Below, piece by piece: positions 45,434 through 60,216 of a stretch of DNA of 64,000 nt. This DNA is from Streptomyces marianii (GTDB taxonomy: Bacteria > Actinomycetota > Actinomycetes > Streptomycetales > Streptomycetaceae): contig NZ_VAWE01000001.1 in assembly GCF_005795905.1 (NCBI RefSeq), positions 6,499,001 to 6,563,000 of the forward strand, written 5' to 3'. The notes under the pieces were generated by a model that was given only the letters and a program-made list of their open reading frames with translations, made no database searches and had not been told where the DNA came from. Position 1 is the stretch's first letter, and each line of letters begins with the position of its first letter. Both the position numbers and the translations under genes were made by a program.

Positions 45434-46444
45434 CTACGCCCGGGCCGGGGCCGAGCCCTCCAGCACCGCCGCCCTGCACTGCGCCGGGGTGCCCCACGCG
45501 TCCCGCAGCGGGCGCGCCTTGCGCAGCCACAGGGACAGGTCCAGCTCGTCGGTGTAGCCGACGGCGCCGTGGAGCTGGAGCGCGGTGCGGGCGGCGGCGT
45601 ACGCGGCCTCGCCCGCGGCGGTCTTCGCCGCCGCGACATCCGCGGCGGCGAGCGTGAGTGCCGCCCCGTGTACGAGCGGGCGGGCGAACTCCAGGGCGAT
45701 CAGCGTGTCCGCCAGCCGGTGCTTGACCGCCTGGAAGGAGCCGATCGGCGCCCCGAACTGGCTGCGCTGCCGCACGTGGGCGACGGTCCGCTCCAGCAGC
45801 GCGAGCCCGACGCCGAGCGCCTGGGCCGCCGTCACGAGCCGCGCCCAGTCCGTCGCCTGCCGCACCGCCGCCGCGACGTCGGGCCCGGCGGCGACCACCT
45901 CCCCGCCCGTGCCCGGCACGGAGAGCCGCCGCACCGGGTCGACGGAGGCGCGCACCGGCCCGTGCCCGGCGGCGATCCGCAGTGCCAGGCCGTCGCCGTC
46001 GCCGTCACCGTGGTCGACCACGAGCAGGCGGTCCGCCGCGTCCGCGTCCAGGGCGTACGGACCCGTCCCCGGCGTGTGCAGCGAGAGCAGCAGGCCGCCC
46101 GACGCGATGCCGGGCAGCAGGTGTTCGGCGAGTGCGGGCTCGTTCAGGGCCGCCACGAGCACCGCGCCCGCGACCGTCTCCACCAGTGGGCCCGGCGCGG
46201 CGTGCCGGCCCAGTTCGACGAACGCGAGGGCCAGTTCGACCGGCAGCGGCCCGACCCCCTCGTACGCCTCGGGCACGGCCAGCGCCAACACGCCGGAACC
46301 GGCGATCCGCGACCACAGCGCCCGGCCGGGTGCGGGGTCGCCCGCCGCCCAGGCGCGCGCCACCGTGGGCGTGTCCGCGGCCGACAGCAGCGCGTCCAAC
46401 GAGCGGACGAACGCCAGCTGTTCGTCGGTCGGCAGGAAGCGCAT
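45434..46444 (-). CDS. Acyl-CoA dehydrogenase, small subunit type (steroid-ring cluster)
   Basis: A 336-residue acyl-CoA dehydrogenase-like protein, shorter than the usual 380. Conserved parts are FLPTDEQLAFVRSLDALLSA, SQFGAPIGSFQAVKHRLADT and ALQLHGAVGYTDELDLSLWL near the C-terminus. It begins 2 bases after the stop of a second, full-size dehydrogenase. Steroid-degrading actinobacteria have heteromeric dehydrogenases built from one such long and one short subunit, so these two are likely partners in HIP side-chain or ring oxidation. Numbered FadE names cannot be given safely. Confidence 0.8.
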   Translation of the reverse strand: MRFLPTDEQLAFVRSLDALLSAADTPTVARAWAAGDPAPGRALWSRIAGSGVLALAVPEAYEGVGPLPVELALAFVELGRHAAPGPLVETVAGAVLVAALNEPALAEHLLPGIASGGLLLSLHTPGTGPYALDADAADRLLVVDHGDGDGDGLALRIAAGHGPVRASVDPVRRLSVPGTGGEVVAAGPDVAAAVRQATDWARLVTAAQALGVGLALLERTVAHVRQRSQFGAPIGSFQAVKHRLADTLIALEFARPLVHGAALTLAAADVAAAKTAAGEAAYAAARTALQLHGAVGYTDELDLSLWLRKARPLRDAWGTPAQCRAAVLEGSAPARA

Positions 46445-46446
46445 GG

Positions 46447-47598
46447 TCAGCGGCGTCCCTTCGGCAGGCCGAGCAGCCGCTCGGCGATGATGTCGCGCTG
46501 GATCTCGTTCGTGCCCGCGTAGACCGGCCCGGCCAGGGCGAACACGTACCCCTCCGCCCACCCGCCGGGTCCGTCCGCCGGCTCGCCCGCCGCGCCGAGC
46601 AGGTCGAGCGCCGTCTCGTGCAGGGCGATGTCGTACTCGGACCAGAACACCTTGTTCAGGCTCGACTCCGCGCCGATCACCGAACCGGCCGCGAATCGCG
46701 AGGCGCCCGCGCACGTGAACAGCTGGTACGCCCGCGCGCCGATCACCGCGTCCGCGACGCGGTCGCGCAGCGCCGTGTCGGAGGGGTCGGCCGCGGCGCC
46801 CCACAGCTCCACCAGGCGCCGCGCCGCGGCAAGATAGCGGCCGGGGGAGCGGAGCGTGAGCCCCCGTTCGCTGCCCGTCGTCGACATGGCGATGCGCCAG
46901 CCCTGCCCCGGTTCGCCGATCACGTCCTCGTCCGGGACGAACACGTCGTCCAGGAACAGCTCGGCGAACGCGGGCTTCCCGTCCAGCCGGCGGATCGGCC
47001 GGACCGTGACCCCGGGGGCCCGCAGGTCGAACATCAGGTACGTCAGCCCCCGGTGCGGCCGCCCGGCGTCCGGGTCGGTGCGGAAGATGCCGAACGCCCG
47101 GTCCGCGAACGCCGCCCGCGACGACCACGTCTTCTGGCCGGACAGCAGCCAGCCGCCCGCCGTTCGGACCGCTCGGGAGCGCAGCGACGCGAGGTCCGAG
47201 CCGGCCTCCGGCTCGGACCAGGCCTGGGCCCACACCACCTCGCCGCTCGCCATGGGCGGCAGGATCCGCTCCCGCTGCTCCTCCGTGCCGTGGTCGAACA
47301 GGGTGGGCGCCAGCAGGCTGATGCCGTTCTGGGAGACCCGGCCGGGGGCGCCCGCCGCGTAGTACTCCTCCTCGAACACCAGCCACCGGAAGACGTCCGC
47401 CCCGCGGCCGCCGTACCGCTCCGGCCACGACACCGCCGACCAGCGGCCGGCGGCCAGCCTCGCCTCCCACCGCCGGTGCTCGGCGAAACCCTCCCCGGTC
47501 TCCAGCGAGGGCAGTGGCACGTCCGGGACGTGCGCGCGCAGCCAGGCGCGGGCCTCGGCGCGGAACGCGTCCTCGTCCGCCGTGTGCGTCAGGTCCAT
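46447..47598 (-). CDS. Acyl-CoA dehydrogenase, large subunit type (steroid-ring cluster)
   Basis: A 383-residue FAD enzyme. Visible: WAQAWSEPEAGSDLASLRSR (flavin/substrate loop), GQKTWSSRAAFADRAFG, FLDDVFVPDEDVIG and VYAGTNEIQRDIIAERLLG. The position of the usual catalytic Glu in YEGT is Ala here, so the base must lie elsewhere or in the partner subunit. It resembles FadE30-33 class enzymes of the mycobacterial KstR2 regulon. The ATG at 47598 has GAGGTG upstream and sits 50 bases from the divergent ipdF start, with a KstR2-like operator between. Confidence 0.85.
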   Translation of the reverse strand: MDLTHTADEDAFRAEARAWLRAHVPDVPLPSLETGEGFAEHRRWEARLAAGRWSAVSWPERYGGRGADVFRWLVFEEEYYAAGAPGRVSQNGISLLAPTLFDHGTEEQRERILPPMASGEVVWAQAWSEPEAGSDLASLRSRAVRTAGGWLLSGQKTWSSRAAFADRAFGIFRTDPDAGRPHRGLTYLMFDLRAPGVTVRPIRRLDGKPAFAELFLDDVFVPDEDVIGEPGQGWRIAMSTTGSERGLTLRSPGRYLAAARRLVELWGAAADPSDTALRDRVADAVIGARAYQLFTCAGASRFAAGSVIGAESSLNKVFWSEYDIALHETALDLLGAAGEPADGPGGWAEGYVFALAGPVYAGTNEIQRDIIAERLLGLPKGRR

Positions 47599-47614
47599 CA
47601 GCGCACCTCGGTTC

Positions 47615-47634
47615 CCTAACAAGTGTTTGGTAGG
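47615..47634. promoter_or_regulatory. KstR2-like operator between acyl-CoA dehydrogenase and ipdF
   Basis: CCTAACAAGTGTTTGGTAGG lies in the 49-base divergent gap. Its core read on the minus strand, ACCAAACACTTGTT, fits the known KstR2 motif AnCAAGnnCTTGnT with a single mismatch. The core word AACAA-NN-GTTTGGT recurs at the other divergent promoter of the cluster (56186-56204) and I noticed it nowhere else in the window. Binding here would repress both directions. Confidence 0.8.
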
Positions 47635-47647
47635 TTAACGTGCCGGT

Positions 47648-48436
47648 GTGACGGACAACAAGGCTCAGTACGTTCCGGGGCACGCGCTGCTGGCCGGCCG
47701 GACCGCCGTCGTCACGGCCGCCGCCGGGGCCGGGATAGGCGGGGCCACCGCCCGGCGGCTCCTGGAGGAAGGTGCGCGGGTCGTCATCGGAGACGTCCAC
47801 GCGCGACGCCTGAAGGAGACGGAGGAGGCGCTCGCGGACGAGTTCGGTCCGGACGCCGTCGCCTCACTGGTCTGCGACGTCACCGACGAGACGCAGGTGC
47901 GGGCCCTCTTCGGCGAGGCGGCACGGCTGCACGGCGGCCTCGACGTCGTCGTCAACAACGCGGGCCTCGGCGGGACGGCCGCGCTCGTCGACATGACCGA
48001 CGCCCAGTGGTCCCGCGTCCTCGACGTCACCCTGAACGGCACGTTCCGTTGCACCCGGGCCGCGCTGCGGGCCTTCCGCGACACCGGCCGCGGCGGAGTC
48101 GTCGTCAACAACGCCTCCGTGGTCGGCTGGCGTGCCCAGGCCGGACAGGCCCACTACGCGGCCGCCAAGGCCGGGGTCATGGCCCTCACCCGGTGCGCCG
48201 CCGTCGAGGCGGCGGGGTTCGGGGTCCGCGTCAACGCCGTGGCGCCCAGCCTCGCCATGCACCCGCACCTGGTGAAGGTCACCTCCGCCGAACTGCTGGA
48301 GGACCTGACCGCCCGGGAGGCCTTCGGCCGGTACGCCGAGCCCTGGGAGGTCGCCAACGTGATCGTCTTCCTCGCCAGCGGATACTCCTCGTACATGACC
48401 GGCGAGACCGTGTCCGTCAGCTCCCAGCATCCCTAG
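47648..48436 (+). CDS. ipdF: SDR dehydrogenase IpdF (HIP catabolism)
   Basis: A 262-residue short-chain dehydrogenase, the same length as mycobacterial IpdF (Rv3559c), with which it shares the start YVPGHALLAGRTAVVTAAAG and the end of the type SGYSSYMTGETVSVSSQHP. Cofactor motif TAAAGAGIGG at 23-32, catalytic Ser157, Tyr170 and Lys174 in GQAHYAAAKAG. In steroid degraders IpdF oxidises the 5-hydroxyl of the hydroxylated HIP-CoA intermediate. The GTG start is 13 bases after the operator, so its promoter is directly controlled. kstR2 follows 154 bases downstream. Confidence 0.9.
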   Translation: MTDNKAQYVPGHALLAGRTAVVTAAAGAGIGGATARRLLEEGARVVIGDVHARRLKETEEALADEFGPDAVASLVCDVTDETQVRALFGEAARLHGGLDVVVNNAGLGGTAALVDMTDAQWSRVLDVTLNGTFRCTRAALRAFRDTGRGGVVVNNASVVGWRAQAGQAHYAAAKAGVMALTRCAAVEAAGFGVRVNAVAPSLAMHPHLVKVTSAELLEDLTAREAFGRYAEPWEVANVIVFLASGYSSYMTGETVSVSSQHP

Positions 48437-48590
48437 TGCCGTGACCGCACTGGGGGCCGCGGTGGACCGGACATCCGCAGGCCCGGGGCGGGACCGGGTA
48501 CCCCCGCCACCCGCACCGGACCGGGCGTGTCCGGCATCCGGAGGGGACCGGCCGTCCGCGGGCCGCCCCGAGCCGGACCAGAATGGACAC

Positions 48591-49205
48591 GTGGCCACGA
48601 CCAAGAAGAAGAACCAGGTGAGCGCCTCGCCCGAGCGGCGCCGCGAACTCCTCGGCACCGCCGCCGAGGTGTTCGCCGCCCACGGCTACAACGCCACCAC
48701 CGTGCGCAGGATCGCCGACGAGGCGGGAATGCTCGCGGGCAGCCTCTACTACCACTTCGACTCCAAGGAGTCGATCGTCGACGAGATCCTCTCCACCTTC
48801 CTCGACGAGCTGTGGGCGGGGTACGACGCCGTCCTCGCCGCCGGGCTCGGGCCGAGGGAGACCATCGAGGCGCTCGTCACCGAGTCCTTCCGGGAGATCG
48901 ACCGGCACCGCGCGGCCGTCGCCATCTACCAGAAGGAGTCCCGGCACCTCTCCGCCCTGCCGCGCTTCCGCTATCTCGCCGACTCCCAGGAGAAGTTCGA
49001 GAAGGCGTGGCTGGGGACGCTGGAGCGCGGGGTCGCCTCGGGCGCCTTCCGGGACGACCTGGACGTCCGGCTCACCTACCGCTTCGTCCGCGACACGGTG
49101 TGGGTCGCGGCGTCCTGGTACCGGCCGGGCGGCCACCACGCCCCCGAGGAGATCGCCCGGCAGTACCTGTCGATGGTCCTGGACGGCATCGCCGTACGGG
49201 ACTGA
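48591..49205 (+). CDS. kstR2: TetR-family repressor KstR2
   Basis: A 204-residue TetR regulator. The HTH is at about residues 14-60 (RRELLGTAAEVFAAHGYNAT, then VRRIADEAGMLAGSLYYHF). The ligand domain contains YRFVRDTVWVAASWYRPGG, nearly the same as in mycobacterial KstR2, which senses HIP-CoA and represses C/D-ring catabolic genes. The GTG at 48591 gives the family's length; the poorly coding 154 bases upstream are taken as spacer. It lies between ipdF and fadA6 as in Mycobacterium. The two operators in this window are its expected targets. Confidence 0.9.
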   Translation: MATTKKKNQVSASPERRRELLGTAAEVFAAHGYNATTVRRIADEAGMLAGSLYYHFDSKESIVDEILSTFLDELWAGYDAVLAAGLGPRETIEALVTESFREIDRHRAAVAIYQKESRHLSALPRFRYLADSQEKFEKAWLGTLERGVASGAFRDDLDVRLTYRFVRDTVWVAASWYRPGGHHAPEEIARQYLSMVLDGIAVRD

Positions 49206-49265
49206 GCCCCGCACGTCCGCCGACCCCCGGCCCTCCCGGGCCGCCCAACGACCTACGGAGCAGCC

Positions 49266-50423
49266 ATGGCCGATGCATTCATCGTCGAAGCGGTCCGCAC
49301 CCCGGTGGGCCGGCGCGGGGGCGGCCTCGCCGCCGTGCACCCCGCCGATCTGGGCGCGCACGTCCTGAGGGCCCTGGTCGACCGCGCCGGGATAGACCCG
49401 GCGGCCGTGGACGACGTCGTCTTCGGCTGTCTCGACACGGTCGGCCCGCAGGCCGGCGACGTCGCCCGGACGAGCTGGCTGGCCGCCGGGCTGCCCGAGG
49501 AGGTGCCCGGCGTCACCGTCGACCGTCAGTGCGGCTCGTCGCAGCAGGCCGTGCACTTCGCAGCCCAGGGCGTGATGTCGGGCACCCAGGACCTCGTCGT
49601 CGCCGGCGGTGTGCAGAACATGTCCCGGATACCCATCGCCTTCGCCTCCCGGCGGGCGGCCGAGCCCCTGGGACTCACCGAGGGGCCGTTCGCCGGCAGC
49701 GAGGGCTGGCGCGCCCGGTACGGCGACGCGCCCGTCGACCAGTTCCACGGCGCCGAGCTCATCGCACGGAAGTGGGGCATCACCCGCCGCGCCATGGAGG
49801 AGTTCGCCCTCGGCTCCCACCGGCGGGCCGTGCGTGCGATCGACGAGGGGCGCTTCGCGCGGGAGACCGTCGCGTACGGCAGCGTCACCGAGGACGAGGG
49901 CCCGCGCCGCGACACCACCCTGGAGCGGATGGCGGTCCTCCCGCCCGTGGTCGAGGGCGGCACGATCACCGCCGCCTGCTCCTCCCAGGTGTCGGACGGG
50001 GCTGCGGCGATGCTGCTCGCGAGCGAACGCGCCGTACGGCGGCACGGGCTGACCCCGCGCGCCCGTGTGCACCACCTCTCGGTGCGCGGCGAGGACCCGA
50101 TCCGCATGCTGTCGGCGCCCGTCCCGGCGACGGCCCACGCGCTGAAGAAGACCGGCCTCACCATCGACGACATCGACCTGGTCGAGATCAACGAGGCCTT
50201 CGCGCCGGTCGCCCTCGCCTGGCTCGAGGAGACGGGCGCCGACCCGGCCCGCGTCAACGTCAACGGCGGCGCCATCGCCCTCGGGCACCCCCTGGGCGCC
50301 ACTGGGGTCCGGCTGATGACCACGCTGCTGCACGAACTGGAACGCACCGGCGGCCGGTTCGGGCTCCAGACGATGTGCGAGGGCGGCGGCCAGGCCAACG
50401 TGACGATCATCGAACGGATGTAG
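49266..50423 (+). CDS. fadA6: Acetyl-CoA acetyltransferase FadA6
   Basis: A 385-residue thiolase of the steroid C/D-ring pathway. Catalytic residues: nucleophile Cys89 in TVDRQCGSSQQAVHFAAQG, GGAIALGHPLGATG with the catalytic His, and the second Cys in TMCEGGGQANVTIIERM. Length and the start ADAFIVEAVRTPVG match mycobacterial FadA6 (Rv3556c), which thiolyses the ring-opened CoA ester late in HIP breakdown. It follows kstR2 by 60 bases with GGAG before the ATG, so ipdF-kstR2-fadA6 is likely one transcript. Confidence 0.9.
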   Translation: MADAFIVEAVRTPVGRRGGGLAAVHPADLGAHVLRALVDRAGIDPAAVDDVVFGCLDTVGPQAGDVARTSWLAAGLPEEVPGVTVDRQCGSSQQAVHFAAQGVMSGTQDLVVAGGVQNMSRIPIAFASRRAAEPLGLTEGPFAGSEGWRARYGDAPVDQFHGAELIARKWGITRRAMEEFALGSHRRAVRAIDEGRFARETVAYGSVTEDEGPRRDTTLERMAVLPPVVEGGTITAACSSQVSDGAAAMLLASERAVRRHGLTPRARVHHLSVRGEDPIRMLSAPVPATAHALKKTGLTIDDIDLVEINEAFAPVALAWLEETGADPARVNVNGGAIALGHPLGATGVRLMTTLLHELERTGGRFGLQTMCEGGGQANVTIIERM

Positions 50424-50554
50424 GGACGCACACCGGGCGCGGGCCCCGGCGTGCCGATCGCCGGGGCCGGACCGACCGCATTTCCCGGGCGCGCGGGGCG
50501 GAACCGCCGAGTGGGAGAGCCGGGACCGCGGCGGAGCGTGCTAGGTTGTGAGGG

Positions 50555-50583
50555 TTGCAGTTTGGTACCCATGAACTTTATGC
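50555..50583 (+). promoter_or_regulatory. Candidate promoter of the cold-shock gene
   Basis: TTGCAG (50555-50560), 17 bases, then TTATGC (50578-50583) fit a vegetative-type promoter. The implied 5' leader of about 75 bases is AT-rich for this genome and includes a T-run (TCGTTTTTCC at 50618-50627), as is common for cold-shock genes with structured leaders. Confidence 0.5.
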
Positions 50584-50665
50584 GCGCCTGACGGGAATGA
50601 TCCGCAGGCGCTTTATCGTTTTTCCGGCATCTCCGGATGGGGCCCCTACCTATCGGGAGAATGAC

Positions 50666-50869
50666 ATGGCCACCGGCACCGTGAAGTGGTTCAACTCGGA
50701 AAAGGGCTTCGGCTTCATCGCGCAGGACGGCGGCGGCGCCGACGTCTTCGCCCACTACTCCAACATCGCCACCCAGGGCTTCCGCGAGCTCCAGGAGGGC
50801 CAGAAGGTCAGCTTCGACGTCACGCAGGGCCCGAAGGGCCCGCAGGCGGAGAACATCGTCCCCGCCTGA
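50666..50869 (+). CDS. Cold-shock protein (CspA family)
   Basis: A 67-residue single cold-shock domain. Both RNA-binding motifs are visible: RNP1 in [11 protein letters not shown] and RNP2 in DVFAHYSNI, after the start [11 protein letters not shown]. It binds single-stranded RNA/DNA and prevents secondary structure. GGGAGA 5 bases upstream of the second ATG in ATGACATGGCC decides the start. A 16-bp terminator follows 21 bases after the stop. It sits with a DEAD-box helicase gene inside a steroid-catabolic cluster, which is unusual. Confidence 0.93.
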
Positions 50870-50890
50870 CCCTCGGGACGCGTACCACGC

Positions 50891-50927
50891 GGCCGGGGCC
50901 CGCACCTTCGCGGTGCGGGCCCCGGCC
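50891..50927 (+). terminator. Strong hairpin terminator after cold-shock gene
   Basis: A perfect 16-bp stem (50891-50906 with 50912-50927) with a 5-nt loop TTCGC, followed by TGTGCTGTGCT. It separates the cold-shock mRNA from the helicase gene 35 bases further on; partial read-through would co-express the helicase. Confidence 0.85.
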
Positions 50928-50961
50928 TGTGCTGTGCTCAGCACCAGGAAGGCAATTTCGC

Positions 50962-52692
50962 ATGACTCGTTCCGCACGCCCCGCACGCAAGCGGCCGGCC
51001 GAGCGCACGGCGAAGCGGGCCCCGAAAGGGGCCGGCGGTGTCGGCCGTACGGTGGGCCCGCAGGACTTCACCGTTCCGGAGCCCCGTGTCCCTGCCCTGG
51101 CCGCCGTCCGGGCCTTCGAGGAGCTGACGGACCTGCCGGCGGCGCTGCTGAAGGCCCTCGCCGCGCAGGGGGTCACGGAGCCGTTCCCGATCCAGGCGGC
51201 GACGCTGCCGAACTCGCTCGCCGGCCGTGATCTCCTCGGGCGCGGGCGTACCGGATCCGGCAAGACCCTCGCCTTCGGGCTGGCGCTGCTCGCCCGTACC
51301 GCCGGGCGCCGGGCGGAGCCGGGTGCTCCCCTCGGGCTCGTGCTCGTTCCCACACGGGAGCTGGCGCAGCAGGTGACGGACGCCCTCACCCCCTACGCGA
51401 CCGCGGTGAACCTGCGTCTGGCGACGGTCGTCGGAGGGCTGTCGATCACCAAGCAGGCCAACCAGCTGCGGCGCGGAGCCGAGGTGCTCGTGGCGACGCC
51501 GGGCCGGTTGCAGGACCTCGTCGAGCGGGGCGACTGCCGTCTCGGCGAGGTGGCGGTCACGGTGCTGGACGAGGCCGACCAGATGGCCGACATGGGTTTC
51601 CTCCCCCAGGTCACCGCCTTGCTGAAGCAGGTGGAGCCCGGCGGGCAGCGCATGCTGTTCTCGGCCACCCTGGACCGGAACATCGACCGGCTGGTACGGG
51701 GGTTCCTGAGCGACCCCGTGGTGCACTCGGTCGACCCGTCCGCCGGTGCCGTCACCACCATGGAGCACCACGTCCTCCACGTCGCCGACGAGACCGACAA
51801 GAAGGCCGTCACCGTGCGCATAGCGGCCCGCGACGGCCGCGTCATCCTCTTCCTCGACACCAAGCGTTCCGTGGACCGTCTGGTCAAGCGGCTGCTGGCC
51901 AGCGGTGTACGGGCGGCGGGCCTGCACGGGGGCCGCACCCAGCCCCAGCGCAACCGCACCCTCGACCAGTTCAAGAACGGCCAGGTCAGCGCGCTGGTCG
52001 CCACCAACGTCGCCGCCCGCGGCATCCATGTGGACGACCTGGATCTCGTCGTGAACGTCGATCCGCCGATGGACCACAAGGACTATCTGCACCGGGGCGG
52101 CCGCACCGCGCGGGCGGGCGAGTCGGGCAGCGTCGTGACCCTCGTACTGCCGGACCAGAAGCGGGAGATGACCCGGCTGATGGCGGACGCCGGGATCACT
52201 CCGTGTACCGCCGCGGTCAGGTCCGGGGACGAGGAGCTGGCCCGGCTGACCGGAGCCCGCGAACCGTCTGGTGTGGCGGTGACCGTCGAGGCGCCCCCCG
52301 CCCCCCAGTCGGCCGCCGCGAAGTCCCGGCCGAAACGGAGGCGCGCGCAGGGCGGCGGCCGTGCCGGTGGACGTGGCGAGGCCGTCCGCGAGGACACCGG
52401 TGCTCGCACCGACGGCGGGCGCCGGACCGGTGCGCGAGACGAGGCCGGCCGCACGGAGCGGGGATCGGCCGACGGCGGGCGTGCCAAGGGCGGCCGCGCA
52501 GCCCGGGGCGGTACCGGCCGTGACGACGGCGGACGTGCGAGGGGCGGCCGCGCCGCCCAGGGCGGCACCGGGCGCGGCGAAACCGGACGCACCGGTGCCG
52601 GGCGGGCCGGGGGCGGCGCGGGGCAGCAGCGCGGACGCACCGCGGGCCGGCCTCAGGGCGGGTCCAGGGGCAGCAGCGCCGCGGCCCGCTGA
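50962..52692 (+). CDS. DEAD-box RNA helicase with Arg/Gly-rich tail
   Basis: A 576-residue ATP-dependent RNA helicase. Motifs in order: Q-motif region EPFPIQAATLP, Walker A GRTGSGKT (Lys101), PTRELAQQ, DEAD in VTVLDEADQMADMGF, SAT in LFSATLDRNIDRL, ATNVAARGIH and HRGGRTARAGESG. From about residue 450 the protein is a long Arg/Gly/Ala-rich, RGG-like tail with repeated GGRA and RTG words, typical of cold-shock helicases that bind RNA non-specifically. AGGAAGG lies upstream of the ATG. It follows the cold-shock gene, with which it likely works in RNA remodelling. Confidence 0.93.
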   Translation: MTRSARPARKRPAERTAKRAPKGAGGVGRTVGPQDFTVPEPRVPALAAVRAFEELTDLPAALLKALAAQGVTEPFPIQAATLPNSLAGRDLLGRGRTGSGKTLAFGLALLARTAGRRAEPGAPLGLVLVPTRELAQQVTDALTPYATAVNLRLATVVGGLSITKQANQLRRGAEVLVATPGRLQDLVERGDCRLGEVAVTVLDEADQMADMGFLPQVTALLKQVEPGGQRMLFSATLDRNIDRLVRGFLSDPVVHSVDPSAGAVTTMEHHVLHVADETDKKAVTVRIAARDGRVILFLDTKRSVDRLVKRLLASGVRAAGLHGGRTQPQRNRTLDQFKNGQVSALVATNVAARGIHVDDLDLVVNVDPPMDHKDYLHRGGRTARAGESGSVVTLVLPDQKREMTRLMADAGITPCTAAVRSGDEELARLTGAREPSGVAVTVEAPPAPQSAAAKSRPKRRRAQGGGRAGGRGEAVREDTGARTDGGRRTGARDEAGRTERGSADGGRAKGGRAARGGTGRDDGGRARGGRAAQGGTGRGETGRTGAGRAGGGAGQQRGRTAGRPQGGSRGSSAAAR

Positions 52693-52700
52693 TGCAGTGA

Positions 52701-52734
52701 CCGGGACCACGGGGCAGCCGCCCCGCGGTCCCGG
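52701..52734. terminator. Bidirectional hairpin between helicase and ipdC
   Basis: CCGGGACC-ac-GGGGC-agcc-GCCCC-gc-GGTCCCGG: a 13-bp interrupted stem with a 2x2 internal loop and a tetraloop. It starts 8 bases after the helicase stop and lies 41 bases after the ipdC stop on the other strand, so it can end both convergent transcripts. Confidence 0.75.
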
Positions 52735-52775
52735 CCCGGGGACGCGGGCCGCCGCCCGGGGCCGGTGGCAACGGT

Positions 52776-53825
52776 TCAGTCCACGGTCCGCAGCCCCCGC
52801 AGCACCCCCTCCGCCTCCGCCATCACCCGGCCGACCAGCTCCGCGCAGCTCGGCAGGTCCCCGATCACGCCCGCGACCTGGCCGGACGCCATCACACCGA
52901 GATCGGTACGGCCCTCGACCATCGCCGCCCGCAGCAGCATCGGGGTGTTGGCGGCGAGCAGGACCTGGCTCCAGGAGAGGTCCTTGCCGTGCCGCAGCGC
53001 CAGGCCGTCGCGGACCATCTCCGGCCAGGACAGCCCGGAGAGCTTCCGGAAGCCCGCCGCCCTGCGCAGCGCGTGCAGCAGGGCGCGGGTGCGACCGGAA
53101 CGTTCGAGGGTCTCGACGAGGTCGGAGCGGAGCATACGGTGCGGCAGGCCGTCGACGGCGGTGGTGACCGTGACGTCCCTGACGGACGCCGCCAGATAAC
53201 GGGCCTTCACCGCGTCCGGCACCGTCGAGTCGGACGTGAGCAGGAAGCGCGTGCCCATGGCGATGCCCGCGGCCCCGTACGCGAGCGCCGCCACCAGACC
53301 GCGCCCGTCGTGGAAACCGCCCGCCGCGACGACCGGGATGTCCACGGCGTCCACCACCTGCGGCAGCAGCACGGTCGTCGCCACGTCGCCGGTGTGCCCG
53401 CCGCCCTCGCCGCCCTGCACGATCACGGCGTCGGCACCCCAGGCCGCGACCTTCTCGGCGTGGCGCCGCGCGCCGACCGACGGGATCACGACCACGCCCG
53501 CGTCCTTGAGCTCCGCGATCAGCTCCCGGGACGGGGCCAGCGCGAACGACGCCACCCGTACGCCCTCGTCGACGACGATCCGCACCCGTTCCCGGGCGTC
53601 CCCTGCGTCGGCCCGCAGATTGACCCCGAACGGCGCCTGAGTGCGGGCCTTCACCTCGCGGACCGCCTGCCGCAGCCGGGCCGGCGTCATCGTCGCGGAG
53701 GCCAGGACCCCCAGGGCGCCGGCGTTCGCGGCCGCCGAGACCAGCCGAGGTCCCGCGACCCAGCCCATGCCGGTCTGGACGACGGGGTGCCGCACTCCGG
53801 TGAGCTCGGTGAGCGCCGTCCTCAT
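52776..53825 (-). CDS. ipdC: IpdC, flavin-dependent reductase of HIP catabolism
   Basis: A 349-residue FMN protein of the nitronate monooxygenase/2-nitropropane dioxygenase fold. It is very close to mycobacterial IpdC (Rv3553): PVVQTGMGWVAGPRLVSAAA at the start, VNLRADAGDARERV, the FMN phosphate region VQGGEGGGHTGDVATT, AAGGFHDGRGLVAALAYGA and LSWSQVLLAANTPMLLRA near the end. In HIP catabolism it reduces a ring intermediate. The label nitronate monooxygenase would be misleading here. The ATG overlaps the ipdB stop by 4 bases; it is the last gene of echA20-ipdA-ipdB-ipdC. Confidence 0.9.
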   Translation of the reverse strand: MRTALTELTGVRHPVVQTGMGWVAGPRLVSAAANAGALGVLASATMTPARLRQAVREVKARTQAPFGVNLRADAGDARERVRIVVDEGVRVASFALAPSRELIAELKDAGVVVIPSVGARRHAEKVAAWGADAVIVQGGEGGGHTGDVATTVLLPQVVDAVDIPVVAAGGFHDGRGLVAALAYGAAGIAMGTRFLLTSDSTVPDAVKARYLAASVRDVTVTTAVDGLPHRMLRSDLVETLERSGRTRALLHALRRAAGFRKLSGLSWPEMVRDGLALRHGKDLSWSQVLLAANTPMLLRAAMVEGRTDLGVMASGQVAGVIGDLPSCAELVGRVMAEAEGVLRGLRTVD

Positions 53826-54571
53826 CGGGCGCCGATCTCACGGTCGCGCCGGCCGTCCGGATCGAGCACCTCGCGGACGAGCCGCAGCTCCTCGGTGGTG
53901 GGTTCGCGGGTGCGCGGGACGGAGCCGCCGCCGGGGACGGCGAGCGGGAAGCCGGTCGCCTCCCGGACCTCCTCCAGGGTGACGCCCGGATGCAGGGAGG
54001 CGAGCCGCATCGACCGGTCCGGCGTCTCGAAGTCGAAGACCCCCAGGTTCGTGACGACGCGAGGGATCCGGTGGAAGCGCGCCCCGCCCGCGCGGTCGTA
54101 CCCGACGCCGCTGACCATGTCGACCTTCTCGACGAAGACCCGGGTCGAGTGCCGGGGGACCCAGTAACTGACCCGGTTGTTGAGGGTGTTCACCGGCGCC
54201 CCGCGCACCCCGAGGAGCTGGCGCGCCGGCCGGGACCAGTCGCCGATGCAGGAGATGTTCTGGTTGCCGTACCGGTCGAGCTGGCTCGCGCCCATCATGA
54301 CGTGCCGCTTGCCGCCGGTGACCACCGTGAGATGGCGACGGTACGGAAGCCAGCCCTCCACCTCCCCGTCCGGACCGACGAGCAGCGCCTCGCCGTCGGT
54401 GAGCAGGAGGTCGGGGGAGAAGGTGCGCCGGGCGAGCCGGGCGCCGAGGGAGGGGATCAGCCCCATGGGGCTCGCCAGCACCTCGCCGTCGCCGCGCCAC
54501 GCCTCGGCGCAGGCGATCACGCAGTACTCGGAGCGGGACGGCACGGGGGTGCGGACCTGGTCGACGCTCAC
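53822..54571 (-). CDS. ipdB: IpdB, beta subunit of steroid ring-C hydrolase
   Basis: A 249-residue class I CoA-transferase-fold protein (mycobacterial IpdB has 250). With IpdA it opens the last steroid ring of COCHEA-CoA by a retro-Claisen hydrolysis and is not a transferase. Visible: the start DQVRTPVPSRSEYCVIACAE, LASPMGLIPSLGARLARRTF, VMMGASQLDRYGNQNISCIG and VFDFETPDRSMRLASLHPG. The usual transferase catalytic Glu is replaced by Ala or Gln in the GASQ segment. The GTG start at 54571 overlaps ipdA by 4 bases. Confidence 0.9.
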   Translation of the reverse strand: MSVDQVRTPVPSRSEYCVIACAEAWRGDGEVLASPMGLIPSLGARLARRTFSPDLLLTDGEALLVGPDGEVEGWLPYRRHLTVVTGGKRHVMMGASQLDRYGNQNISCIGDWSRPARQLLGVRGAPVNTLNNRVSYWVPRHSTRVFVEKVDMVSGVGYDRAGGARFHRIPRVVTNLGVFDFETPDRSMRLASLHPGVTLEEVREATGFPLAVPGGGSVPRTREPTTEELRLVREVLDPDGRRDREIGAR

Positions 54572-55419
54572 CGCTGCTCCTCGTGCCAGGCCCGCACGGC
54601 GGACCGGTAGGCGTGCTCGTCGGGACCCGACAGGAAGCGCTCGGCGAACTCCGGCCACGGCGTGGTCGCGTACAGCTTCTGGAAGGACTCGTCACGGGCG
54701 TGATCGGGGGCGCAGGACGTGAAGTGCGCCCCGTCCGGGGCCTCGACGACGCCCGTGACGGTGTGCCGTCCGACGAGCAGGGTCTGCGGGGCGGCGTCCT
54801 TGGTCAGCTCGGCCGTCTCCACGAGCCGCTCGCACGAGACGTACGCCTCGTCGGCCGCCTCGCAGAAGAGGTCGTCGAAGTAGGGGTCGGGCCCGAGGTA
54901 CTGGCCGTTGCCGAGCCGGTCGGCACGGTTGAGGTGGACCAGGGCGGCGTCCAGGCGCAGTGCCGGGACCGCGACGAACTCCTCGCCGTCGCCGTACGGC
55001 GAACGGACCGTGCGCAGTTCCGGGTTGACCCGCATGACGTCCGAACCGAGGCCGGCCCGCACGGGCATGAAGGGGAGCCGGTTGGCCGCGGCGTGCAGCC
55101 CCCACATGAACATCGCCTCGTCCAGCTCCGTCATCGCGATCGTGCCCGCCTCGCGGGCCGCCCGGAAGTGGGGCTCCAGCGGTACGGAGTCGAGCGTCGC
55201 GAACGGCGCGACCAGCCTGCGCACCCGCCCCGCCGCACACAGCATCCCCACGTCCGGGCCGCCGTAGGAGACGACGGTCAGGCCGGTGGCCCCGGACCGC
55301 AGCAGCGCCCGTACCAGGGCCATCGGTTTGCGGCGCGAGCCCCAGCCGCCGATGCCCAGGGCCATGCCGCTGCGCAGCCGCCCCGCGACGTCGTCGGCGG
55401 TCATCGTCTTGTCCGCCAT
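54568..55419 (-). CDS. ipdA: IpdA, alpha subunit of steroid ring-C hydrolase
   Basis: A 283-residue CoA-transferase-fold protein. Conserved: MALGIGGWGSRRKPMALVRA, VSYGGPDVGMLCAAGRVRRL and TELDEAMFMWGLHAAANRLPF. A glutamate of this last stretch (Glu98 or Glu101) is the likely counterpart of the IpdA Glu implicated in ring-opening catalysis in the known enzyme. IpdAB hydrolyses the ring-C diketone of COCHEA-CoA. ATG 55419 is 3 bases from the echA20 stop, and its stop overlaps ipdB. Confidence 0.9.
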   Translation of the reverse strand: MADKTMTADDVAGRLRSGMALGIGGWGSRRKPMALVRALLRSGATGLTVVSYGGPDVGMLCAAGRVRRLVAPFATLDSVPLEPHFRAAREAGTIAMTELDEAMFMWGLHAAANRLPFMPVRAGLGSDVMRVNPELRTVRSPYGDGEEFVAVPALRLDAALVHLNRADRLGNGQYLGPDPYFDDLFCEAADEAYVSCERLVETAELTKDAAPQTLLVGRHTVTGVVEAPDGAHFTSCAPDHARDESFQKLYATTPWPEFAERFLSGPDEHAYRSAVRAWHEEQR

Positions 55420-55422
55420 GGG

Positions 55423-56166
55423 TCAGGCCTCCTTGCCGAAGGTGTCCCGGACGCGGCCCGCGGTCCCGGCGAGGTTCGCCTCGAAGGTGAAGCCCTGCTC
55501 GTACCGGTAGCTGCGGTGCACGTCCACCGGGTCGATGCCGTTGATGGCGGCCTTGGCCAGCCGGATGAGACGGCCGTCCTTGGCGGCGACCTCGCGCGCC
55601 AGCCCCAGGGCCGCGGCCCGGAGCCCGTCGCGGGGGACGACCCGCCAGACCGAACCGTGGGCGCGCAGTTCGGCGGCCGTCACGGTGCGGGAGGTGTAGT
55701 ACAGGGTGCGCATCAGGTGCTGGGGGACGAGCCGGGCGAGGTGCGTGGCCGCCCCGAGCGCGCCCCGGTCCAGCTCCGGCAGCCCGAAGACGGCGTCGTC
55801 GGAGGCCACCACGGCGTCGGCGTTCCCGACGAGTCCGATCCCGCCGCCCAGACAGAAGCCGTGCACGGCGGCCACGACGGGGACCTCGCACTCGTAGACG
55901 GCCCCGAAGGCCTCGTGGCAGCCCCGGTTGGCGCCGATCAGGGCCTCGTGCCCGGCGTCGCGCTGCAACTCCTTGATGTCGACGCCCGCGTTGAAGCCGC
56001 GGCCCTCGGCGGCCAGGACCACACAGCGGACCTCCGGGTCCCGGCCGGCGCGGCGCACGGAGTCGGCGAGTGCGTACCAGCCGTGGACGGGGAGGGCGTT
56101 GACGGGCGGGAAGTCGACCGTCACGACGCGAACGCCCTTCTCCGGGCTTGCGGTGGAGACACCCAT
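55423..56166 (-). CDS. echA20: EchA20, crotonase-fold ring-D hydrolase
   Basis: A 247-residue crotonase-family protein, the same length as mycobacterial EchA20 (Rv3550), which opens steroid ring D of HIEC-CoA. Close matches: VTVDFPPVNALPVHGWYALAD, AEGRGFNAGVDIKELQRD (oxyanion-hole strand), HGFCLGGGIGLVGNADAVVA and FGLPELDRGALGAATHLARL, LVPQHLMRTLYYTS. It is the first gene of the minus-strand operon; a KstR2-like operator lies 20 bases upstream of its ATG. Confidence 0.9.
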   Translation of the reverse strand: MGVSTASPEKGVRVVTVDFPPVNALPVHGWYALADSVRRAGRDPEVRCVVLAAEGRGFNAGVDIKELQRDAGHEALIGANRGCHEAFGAVYECEVPVVAAVHGFCLGGGIGLVGNADAVVASDDAVFGLPELDRGALGAATHLARLVPQHLMRTLYYTSRTVTAAELRAHGSVWRVVPRDGLRAAALGLAREVAAKDGRLIRLAKAAINGIDPVDVHRSYRYEQGFTFEANLAGTAGRVRDTFGKEA

Positions 56167-56185
56167 CAGCGGATCAGCTACCTTT

Positions 56186-56204
56186 CCACCAAACGTTTGT
56201 TAGG
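56186..56204. promoter_or_regulatory. KstR2-like operator between echA20 and SDR genes
   Basis: CCACCAAACGTTTGTTAGG lies in the 66-base divergent gap. Its 14-bp core ACCAAACGTTTGTT matches AnCAAGnnCTTGnT apart from the two symmetric G/C positions, and its middle CAAACGTTTG is a perfect palindrome. It shares the 17-base frame CCTAACAA-NN-GTTTGGT with the operator at 47615-47634 on the complementary strand. KstR2 is encoded between the two sites. Confidence 0.8.
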
Positions 56205-56232
56205 TGACTGCTCGTCAGGAAGGTAGCAGCCG

Positions 56233-57159
56233 ATGGAGCTGGACGGGAGGGTCGCGGTCGTCACCGGCGGAACGCGCGGTGTCGGCGCGGGCATCGCAAG
56301 GGCGTTCCTGGCGGCCGGGGCGGACGTCGTCGTCTGCGCCCGCAGACCACCCGGCGCACCCGTCGCCTCCGCAGGACGCACGGCCCGGTTCCTGCCCGTC
56401 GACCTGCGGGAGCCGGCGGCCGTCGACGACTTCCTCGCCGAGGTCGCCCGCAGCCACGGCCGGCTCGACGCCCTGGTCAACAACGCCGGCGGGGCGCCGT
56501 ACCGGCTGCTGCGGGACGGCGGCCCGGCGCGGCACGCGCGGGTGCTGGAACTGAACCTGGTCGCACCGCTGACGGTCTCGCTCGCCGCGCACGGACTGCT
56601 GCGCGCCGCACGCGGGTGCGTGGTGATGGTCGGCAGCGTGAGCGCGACCCGGCCGTCGCCGGGAACCGCCGCCTACGGAGCGGCCAAGGCGGGGCTGGAG
56701 AGCCTCGCCCGGTCCATGGCGGTGGAGTGGGCGCCGGAGGTCCGGGTGAACACGGTCGTGCCCGGAATGGTGCGCACGGAACTGTCGCACCTGCACTACG
56801 GCGACGAGCAGGGGGTCGCGGCGGTGGGCCGCACCGTACCGCTGGGCCGGCTCGCCGAACCGGGCGAGATCGGCGACGCGGCCGTGTTCCTCGCGTCCCC
56901 AAGGGCGGCGTACATCAGCGGGGCGTCCCTGCTGGTCCACGGAGGAGGGGAGCGCCCCGCGTTCCTCGGCGCCGCGACGGTCAACGGGGGCGGGTCGGGC
57001 GGCGGGCCCGCGGTCGCCGGTGGGGCGGTGGTGGACGGCGCCAGGGCCGGGGTGGACCGCGACCGGTCCGGTGCGGGCGGCGAAGGGCCCGGTGCGGGCG
57101 GCGCCGCGGGCAGGACGGCCTGCGCCCCCGCGAGGGCCGCCGACGACAAGGAGGGCTGA
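56233..57159 (+). CDS. SDR-family dehydrogenase (Rv3549c-like) with Gly-rich tail
   Basis: A 308-residue short-chain dehydrogenase/reductase. Cofactor motif TGGTRGVGAG at 11-20, LVNNAGG, catalytic Ser in GSVSATRPSPG and Tyr148-x3-Lys152 in AAYGAAKAG. The position, divergent from echA20, is that of Rv3549c in the mycobacterial KstR2 regulon, so a role in C/D-ring oxidation is likely; the exact step is not settled. The last 50 residues or so after LLVHGGGERPAFL are a Gly/Ala/Arg-rich extension absent from the usual 255-260-residue enzyme. The downstream SDR starts 1 base after its stop. Confidence 0.82.
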   Translation: MELDGRVAVVTGGTRGVGAGIARAFLAAGADVVVCARRPPGAPVASAGRTARFLPVDLREPAAVDDFLAEVARSHGRLDALVNNAGGAPYRLLRDGGPARHARVLELNLVAPLTVSLAAHGLLRAARGCVVMVGSVSATRPSPGTAAYGAAKAGLESLARSMAVEWAPEVRVNTVVPGMVRTELSHLHYGDEQGVAAVGRTVPLGRLAEPGEIGDAAVFLASPRAAYISGASLLVHGGGERPAFLGAATVNGGGSGGGPAVAGGAVVDGARAGVDRDRSGAGGEGPGAGGAAGRTACAPARAADDKEG

Positions 57160-57160
57160 G

Positions 57161-58084
57161 ATGAACGCAGTTGCCGGGATCTGCCGTGACCGGGTGGTGG
57201 CCGTGACGGGTGCGGGCCGTGGGCTGGGGCGCGCACACGCGCTGGCGTTCGCGGCGGAGGGCGCGCGGGTCGTGGTCAACGACCTGGGAGTCGGGCCGGA
57301 CGGCACCCCTGTCGGGGACAGCCCGGCCGGCCGGGTCGTCGAGGAGATCCGCGCGCGGGGCGGCGAGGCGGTGCCCCACTCGGGCGACGTGGCCTCGGCC
57401 GAGGGAGCCGCCTCGCTGGTGGCGACGGCGCTCGGCTCCTTCGGGCGGCTCGACACGCTCGTCAACAACGCCGGCTTCCTGCGCGACCGGATGCTGGTCA
57501 ACCTCGACGAGGACGACTGGGACGCCGTGGTGCGGGTCCATCTGAAGGGCCACTTCCTGCCCCTGAGGCACGCGGCGGTCCACTGGCGGGCCGAGACCCG
57601 GGCGGGGCGCGAGCCCTCGGCCCGCGTCGTCAACACCTCCAGCGGGGCGGGCCTGCTGGGCTCGGTCGGCCAGGGGGGCTACAGCGCGGCCAAGGCCGGC
57701 ATCGTGGGCCTGACCCTCGTCGCGGCGGCGGAACTGTCGCGCTACGGCGTCCAGGTCAACGCCATCGCCCCGGCCGCGCGGACGCGCATGACGGAGCGGA
57801 CCTTTGCCGAGGCGATGGCGGCGCCGGAGGACCCCGGAGCCTTCGACGCGATGGCGCCGGAGAACGTCTCGCCCCTGGTGGTGTGGCTGGGCTCGACGCC
57901 GTCCGCGGGCGTGACCGGCCGGGTCTTCGAGGCGGAGGCGGGCCGGATCACGGTCATGGAGGGCTGGCGGCGGGGCCCCACGGCCGACCGCGGTGCCCGC
58001 TGGACCCCGGCGGAGGCGGGGGAGGAGGCACTGAGACTCCTCGCGGAGGGGACGCCGCCGCAGCCGGTGTACGGGGCGCGGTAG
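57161..58084 (+). CDS. SDR-family dehydrogenase (Rv3548c-like)
   Basis: A 307-residue short-chain dehydrogenase of the longer, multifunctional-enzyme-type class. Cofactor motif TGAGRGLGRAHALAF, NDLGVGPDG loop, LVNNAGFLRDRML, catalytic Ser in NTSSGAGLLGS and Tyr/Lys in GGYSAAKAG. The C-terminal extension MEGWRRGPTADRGARWTPAE is normal for this class. It matches the place of Rv3548c in the mycobacterial regulon. An AAGGAGG ribosome site overlaps the end of the previous gene, so both SDRs are one operon under the operator at 56186. Confidence 0.85.
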   Translation: MNAVAGICRDRVVAVTGAGRGLGRAHALAFAAEGARVVVNDLGVGPDGTPVGDSPAGRVVEEIRARGGEAVPHSGDVASAEGAASLVATALGSFGRLDTLVNNAGFLRDRMLVNLDEDDWDAVVRVHLKGHFLPLRHAAVHWRAETRAGREPSARVVNTSSGAGLLGSVGQGGYSAAKAGIVGLTLVAAAELSRYGVQVNAIAPAARTRMTERTFAEAMAAPEDPGAFDAMAPENVSPLVVWLGSTPSAGVTGRVFEAEAGRITVMEGWRRGPTADRGARWTPAEAGEEALRLLAEGTPPQPVYGAR

Positions 58085-58229: not shown

Positions 58230-60167
<1,938 letters not shown>

Positions 60168-60216
60168 CCAGGCCGGGCGCCCCTCGCGCCGCACCGGCCG
60201 CGCACTGACCTGAGGG

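Follow-up and report, generated by a model that had tools for sequence, protein, structure and literature searches.

What does Streptomyces marianii do with a gene block that resembles the steroid ring C/D cluster of mycobacteria, and does the rest of the genome hold what such a block would need? The block lies in a stretch of 64,000 nucleotides (here the window; G000:C1:6499001-6563000 of the 9.0-Mb genome, where G000 is this genome and the other G handles are comparison genomes). An earlier note, made from the sequence alone, had read it as a complete-looking set for degrading hydrindane propionates (HIP) under the regulator KstR2. We applied gene calling and family scans to the window and compared NCBIfam equivalog cut-offs, structure matches, trees and synteny. 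Judged from sequence, we consider it likely that the block is the ring C/D module of a sterol pathway, that a side-chain module is also present in the genome, and that a second locus, S2, is a candidate for the opening of rings A and B. The strain may degrade sterols by way of a middle step not yet described.

Are the genes of the block what they were taken for? Every gene named in the earlier note was found between positions 45434 and 58084, about where it had been placed (Table 1), and each named protein is tied to the KstR2/HIP type by a family model, a solved structure, a tree or synteny. IpdA scored 328 bits to 6co6_A and IpdB 285 bits to 6co6_B, compared with 90 and 62 bits, respectively, for glutaconate CoA-transferase. 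KstR2 scored 228 bits to 2ibd and 193 bits to the KstR2 structure 4w1u, with the next family at 75 bits. In the trees, FadA6 fell in the FadA6 clade, split from FadA5 at 100/100, and EchA20 fell in the EchA20 clade (support 100/98). With these scores and clades, the tested proteins were not placed with generic crotonases, thiolases and transferases, the outcome that the earlier note had named as telling against its identification. The model, structure and tree results also rule out chance or artefact as the source of the block. IpdA keeps the Glu (Glu-alpha105) that is altered in entry 6coj, and IpdB aligns a Gly at the Gly-beta57 position. The meaning of these residues, including the replacement of the transferase Glu by Gly-beta57, comes from the available part of PMC5380842; judged by them, IpdAB is of the hydrolase type.

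The remaining assignments rely more on identity and gene position. IpdF shares 62-68% identity with in-block genes from other families, rising to 77% in two f17 genomes; SDR-1 is 50-62% identical to the in-block gene of G063, G258 and G232, and SDR-2 is 58-68% identical to in-block genes. IpdC is 61-74% identical to in-block IpdC of other families and scored 189 bits to 5gvj (FabK-type); the family scan reached no IpdC-specific NCBIfam model. A 788-amino-acid open reading frame at 45434 resolves into two acyl-CoA dehydrogenase genes. The FadE32-like protein shares 43-50% identity with the fadE32-position genes of G188, G258, G214 and G202 (56% in G151) and reached only 109 of 450 bits with the IpdE2 model. 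Its FadE31-like partner is 60-65% identical to fadE31-position genes of six genomes (73% in G151) and lies inside the FadE31 clade with support 100/100, separate from FadE30. The FadE31-FadE32 pair is therefore present by synteny and identity for both subunits and by tree for FadE31 only.

Table 1. Features of the block (window positions) and the second locus.
Feature	Position	Strand	Basis or remark
FadE32-like acyl-CoA dehydrogenase, beta-type subunit	45434..46450	-	synteny and identity
FadE31-like acyl-CoA dehydrogenase	46447..47601	-	synteny, identity, tree
KstR2-type operator AACAAGTGTTTGGT	47618..47631		between divergent fadE31 and ipdF
IpdF (short-chain dehydrogenase/reductase, SDR)	47648..48436	+	PRK07831, 440.6 vs cut-off 336
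KstR2 (TetR family)	48588..49205	+	structure matches; likely start GTG 48591
FadA6 thiolase	49266..50423	+	PRK07801, 692 vs 591
DEAD-box RNA helicase	about 50686..52692	+	interposed between fadA6 and ipdC; not a pathway member
IpdC (flavin-dependent reductase)	52776..53825	-	identity and structure match
IpdB	53822..54571	-	249 amino acids; structure match 6co6_B
IpdA	54568..55419	-	structure match 6co6_A
EchA20 (crotonase)	55423..56166	-	PRK07938, 414.5 vs 260
KstR2-type operator, AACAAACGTTTGGT on minus strand	56188..56201		between divergent echA20 and SDR genes
SDR-1, position of Rv3549c	56233..57159	+	PRK07856, 366 vs 255
SDR-2, position of Rv3548c	57161..58084	+	PRK07791 subfamily cut-off, 475 vs 373
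S2, second locus	about 4802-4858 kb (G000:C1)		FadD3/FadE30 searches

Is the block complete? The order in G258 is fadE33, fadE32, fadE31, fadD3, fadE30, ipdF, kstR2, fadA6, ipdC, ipdB, ipdA, echA20 and two SDR genes. These labels follow synteny with the Rv table in the available part of PMC5380842, and FadE33/IpdE2, FadD3, KstD, HsaC and HsaA of G258 also pass NCBIfam cut-offs. The Streptomyces block shares with the Mycobacterium/Rhodococcus KstR2/HIP cluster (Rv3548c-Rv3564; Crowe et al. 2017, PMC5380842, as far as available) ipdABC, echA20, fadA6, kstR2, ipdF, fadE31/32, the two SDR genes, KstR2-type operators and the IpdAB hydrolase residues. It differs in lacking fadD3, fadE30 and fadE33, in an inserted helicase gene and in the operator variant CTAACAARYGTTTGGTRG. 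The earlier claim of the mycobacterial relative order thus stands for the genes that are there, and the impression of completeness does not survive. A complete set with FadE30-type dehydrogenases is ruled out by synteny and tree, the dehydrogenases of the block being FadE31/FadE32. FadD3 was absent from the block in family scans and synteny, and the IpdE1-IpdE2 (FadE30-FadE33) pair in synteny and tree, so the HIP-CoA synthetase and the first dehydrogenase are not encoded there.

Similar gaps were seen in related loci. We fetched 80 loci via IpdB, of which 79 are titled Streptomyces and one "Actinobacteria bacterium"; some are truncated. At the thresholds used, FadE30 was found in the block in 7, an EchA13-like protein in 9, FadE33 in 1 and FadD3 (45% identity) in 0 of the 80, and the helicase gene recurred in 23. 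Loci from the plasmid collection yielded no complete reference cluster. The Streptomyces genomes G269, G216 and G143 (L167-L170) retain FadE30 inside the block. An EchA13-like crotonase is present in the blocks of G269 and G216 and, by tree, of G143. EchA13 is tied to 7-hydroxy HIP from cholate in the available part of PMC5380842, so these three may also use bile acids.

How is the block controlled? We take the mycobacterial KstR2 motif to be ANCAAGNNCTTGNT; it is present as three exact copies in the G258 cluster and is one mismatch from AACAAGTGTTTGGT. Perfect matches of the Streptomyces form, AACAARYGTTTGGT, occur in the whole 9.0-Mb genome only at 47618 and 56188, in the two divergent intergenic regions of the block. 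All 80 fetched loci have a box upstream of echA20 that differs from the 18-mer at three positions or fewer. An ipdF match was located in 68 loci, and in 60 of these such a box stands no more than 400 bases away from it. Because the only two perfect boxes sit at divergent promoters, KstR2 probably controls the four transcription units of the block and, as judged by the perfect box, nothing else in the genome. Another box, AGCAAGCGCTTGGT at G000:C1:1151638, lies upstream of a gene that we take to be of the CaiB/BaiF type (AMACR). We rejected AMACR as a further KstR2 target because 18 of 20 IpdB-negative genomes examined also have CTAAGCGCTTGCT, exact or with one mismatch, upstream of that gene. 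The association of CTAAGCGCTTGCT with the CaiB/BaiF-type gene is seen in IpdB-positive and IpdB-negative Streptomyces alike.

Where might the missing steps be encoded? The earlier note had proposed looking beyond the block for kstD, kshA, hsaC and fadD3; the first three were not found in this genome, and a FadD3-family ligase was found 1.7 Mb from the block. There, separated by 33 kb, are the genome's best matches to FadD3 and FadE30, which define S2. The ligase passes its model (818 vs 657 bits). S2 carries two FadE30-type and two FadE33-type dehydrogenase genes, and the FadE30 candidates lie inside the FadE30 clade of the tree. It also encodes Ltp2-like thiolases (31 and 46%) with a ChsH2-like DUF35 protein, an HsaB-like flavin reductase (45%; 173 of 230 bits, below the model cut-off), an FMO-type flavoprotein, an NDP-forming CoA ligase, LLM enzymes, a PF04199 protein, a TetR protein of the TetR_C_38 type and two amidohydrolase-2 proteins, the second judged via its 91% counterpart in G261. 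S2 is conserved in G261, G173 and G112. A literature search turned up no description of such a split arrangement in Streptomyces, and such a paper may exist.

Other genes and loci were seen around this subject. A KbpA gene (NCBIfam KbpA, 288 vs 250) lies within the S2 genes at G000:C1:4836319-4848785, together with 812- and 987-amino-acid genes that are presumably afsK and afsR of a kbpA-afsK-afsR locus. The f17 genomes G151, G259 and G055 (L151-L157) have a second locus with FadE30 (64-65%), FadD, Ltp2-like and FadE33-like genes, with an HsaB-like gene seen in G151 and G055; no S2-type operator was found there at one mismatch or fewer. The block of G151 is itself without FadE30 and FadD3.

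Does anything connect S2 to sterols? A palindrome, TCTGACGnnnCGTCAGA, is common to the S2 promoters of four genomes and, with one mismatch, is found upstream of the FadE30-like gene in G036, an f14 genome. It appears unlike the KstR motif. Sites with at most one core mismatch number 13 in the 120-kb S2 stretch and 0 in the window, and over five fetched regions of the genome there are 21, compared with 3 for the reversed pattern; since the regions S3-S6 were picked for holding boxes and the motif was read off S2, the enrichment counts there are circular. At two mismatches the motif gave 79 sites per strand vs 15 for the reversed control and was rejected for genome-wide use. Outside S2 there are 12 sites with at most one mismatch, 7 of which adjoin homologues of mycobacterial sterol-region genes.

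CYP125, FadA5 and Ltp2 are known sterol side-chain enzymes. One box adjoins a gene for CYP125 (so labeled by 56% identity to a synteny-labeled gene), divergent from one for FadA5 (61%), which passes the steroid thiolase model (692 vs 515). A boxed run encodes, in order, a ChsE subunit, ChsH2 (36%), another ChsE subunit (34%), ChsH1 (54%) and Ltp2 (65%), which passes its model (657 vs 469). Boxes also stand beside an LLM enzyme gene (51%), a homologue (56%) of the hydratase-like gene adjoining kstD in G258, another homologue (also 56%) of a gene from the mycobacterial sterol region that encodes 399 amino acids, and two genes with weak Ltp-like similarity (29-34%). Ltp3/Ltp4/DUF35-type homologues (66, 55 and 44%) lie about 19 kb from one box. 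The side-chain set of CYP125, FadA5 and ChsE/ChsH/Ltp2 is thus present by homology, with model cut-offs for FadA5 and Ltp2. Compared with the actinobacterial side-chain genes (cyp125, fadA5, chsE1E2, chsH1H2, ltp2 and ltp3/ltp4, presumably so named and placed by synteny), these homologues are 34-66% identical and several stand beside TCTGACGnnnCGTCAGA boxes, but they are dispersed over at least three loci. The labels CYP125, KshA, FadE and Ltp follow synteny unless a model cut-off is given.

Is the block peculiar to this strain? IpdB was found in 210 of 295 sampled Streptomyces genomes and in 73 of the 296 genomes of a class sample. The block is therefore widespread in the genus rather than a one-strain curiosity, and any notion that it is unusual there can be set aside. 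With the first amidohydrolase of S2 as marker (threshold 1e-180), IpdB and S2 occurred together in 204 of the 295 genomes, IpdB alone in 6, S2 alone in 2 and neither in 83, in counts that ignore kinship among genomes. Among Streptomyces of the class sample, a FadE30-like gene at 1e-80 was present in 18 of 18 IpdB-positive and 0 of 10 IpdB-negative genomes. CYP125, surveyed in 80 of the 295, matched in 33 of 36 IpdB-positive and 4 of 44 IpdB-negative genomes, again with kinship ignored. Among the four exceptions, the match in G431 is partial, G296 and G371 are less than 80% complete, and G371 and G455 carry the S2 marker. The three IpdB-positive genomes without CYP125 (G418, G439 and G480) also lack the S2 marker.

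Which enzymes, then, would remove rings A and B? Unlike the 9,10-seco pathway (KstD, KshAB and HsaACD), the genome has no detected KstD, KshA or HsaC; the HsaB-like reductase of S2 is the likeness seen. Of the 44 PF00890 matches in the genome, five span the full profile: three succinate dehydrogenase/fumarate reductase flavoproteins, an L-aspartate oxidase and a PRK12834 flavoprotein. The last was rejected as KstD (35-41 bits to KstD-type structures; best match, flavocytochrome c). In searches run without a positive-control genome, KshA gave a single 33-bit Rieske match and HsaC no match at 1e-5. In local searches, the KshA query, so labeled by synteny (it matched no NCBIfam model at 1e-70), recovered a 57% match in G202, and the HsaC query, which passes the HsaC model, recovered 54% matches in G202 and G063. 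Since the same queries recover matches in G202, which is of another family, real orthologues in this genome should have shown up. HsaA and HsaD gave no match in the window, S2, S3, S4 and S6, and no genome-wide search was made for them. Rings A and B may accordingly be removed in another way or supplied pre-degraded, or the enzymes may be too divergent to detect. With these three enzymes not found and the FadD3-family ligase remote, the genome does not point to degradation of HIP that the strain itself makes through the classical 9,10-seco route; the link to sterols in the earlier inference gains support from the side-chain homologues elsewhere in the genome.

S2 is the natural candidate for the middle step because it co-occurs with the block and shares its operator with the side-chain genes. 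Its role, the substrate and the pairing of regulators with operators are inferred. Several observations weigh against that assignment. S2 was rejected as part of the KstR2 regulon: it has 0 sites within two mismatches of the Streptomyces KstR2 box, and its single one-mismatch site for the mycobacterial motif lies inside the FadD3-like gene, whereas fadD3 and fadE30 belong to the KstR2 regulon of Mycobacterium tuberculosis as listed in the available part of PMC5380842. In the trees, the S2 ligase lies outside the in-block FadD3 clade and the S2 FadE30-like protein groups with family f14 instead of with in-block FadE30; G143 carries both FadE30 types, and the IpdE2-like subunit of S2 reached 142 of 450 bits. 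Outside S2, 5 of the 12 operator-like sites lack a neighbouring sterol gene, and phylogeny is uncontrolled in the co-occurrence counts. The failure to find KstD, KshA and HsaC belongs here as well. Set against that absence, the available part of PMC7181669 reports, for Streptomyces sp. SCUT-3, induction on feather medium of genes named ksdD, hsaA and hsaC/hsaB.

If the block works as its characterised orthologues do (PMC5380842 and PMC6678751, in the parts available), EchA20 would hydrolyse ring D after the redox steps of IpdC and IpdF, IpdAB would open ring C by retro-Claisen hydrolysis, and FadA6 with FadE31-FadE32 would complete the breakdown of the chain. KstR2 presumably represses the four transcription units from the two divergent operators. 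Activation of the entry acid and the first dehydrogenation would most likely come from the FadD3-family ligase and the FadE30-like dehydrogenase of S2. One possible extension, which we offer tentatively, is that most Streptomyces species have a complete but scattered sterol pathway in which the S2 regulon opens rings A and B by new, non-9,10-seco chemistry and passes its product, HIP-CoA or something closely related, to the KstR2 block. The set for this would comprise heteromeric acyl-CoA dehydrogenases, Ltp2-like/DUF35 retro-aldolases, an FMO-type monooxygenase, a flavin reductase, LLM enzymes, the two amidohydrolase-2 proteins, a PF04199 cyclase-family hydrolase and the FadD3-family and NDP-forming CoA ligases.

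Soil is rich in Streptomyces. Should sterol carbon pass through the block, a large group of soil bacteria would have been overlooked as sterol degraders. The S2 regulon would then be a defined, genetically tractable set in which to seek an undescribed ring A/B opening, of value to steroid biotechnology and to the study of sterol turnover. The absence of the FadD3/IpdE1E2 step would make the true effector of the Streptomyces KstR2 directly testable.

Could the nucleus be opened by other organisms? Cells might take up HIP or ring-A/B-degraded acids from other bacteria and degrade rings C and D only, with the side-chain genes serving partial conversion to C19/C22 products. The finding of side-chain and C/D genes without KstD, KshA or HsaC would fit, but the large, co-occurring and commonly boxed S2 set would have no role, and removing a side chain without opening the nucleus would presumably yield little carbon for so widespread a trait; we regard cross-feeding as unlikely. 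Rather more doubtful is a non-steroid substrate of the block, either a hydrindane or a cyclic terpenoid such as one derived from hopanoids or diterpenoids, with the upper pathway encoded by S2. Both the missing ring A/B steroid enzymes and an S2 content unlike the fetched mycobacterial-type sterol genes would suit such a substrate, yet the genome holds the CYP125, FadA5 and Ltp2 homologues, and CYP125 tracks the block. The survey in PMC4810484, in the part available, required at least 6 of 8 enzymes, KshA and HsaC included, and excluded 55 of 57 Streptomyces while keeping two as putative degraders. Those two, the SCUT-3 genes, the HsaB-like protein of S2 and the limited reach of the HsaA and HsaD searches leave some room for a classical 9,10-seco pathway whose ring A/B enzymes are so divergent that the searches used missed them, or lay outside those searches, but this is very improbable given that the same queries yield 52-57% orthologues in G202 and that all five whole-profile PF00890 proteins belong to other families. 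A sterol pathway with its ring C/D module in the block and S2 as the ring A/B candidate remains our preferred reading.

Outside the block, a trypsin-like serine protease frame, judged by eye from the translation, lies at window positions 59330-60208 and overlaps the open reading frame 58734-60167.

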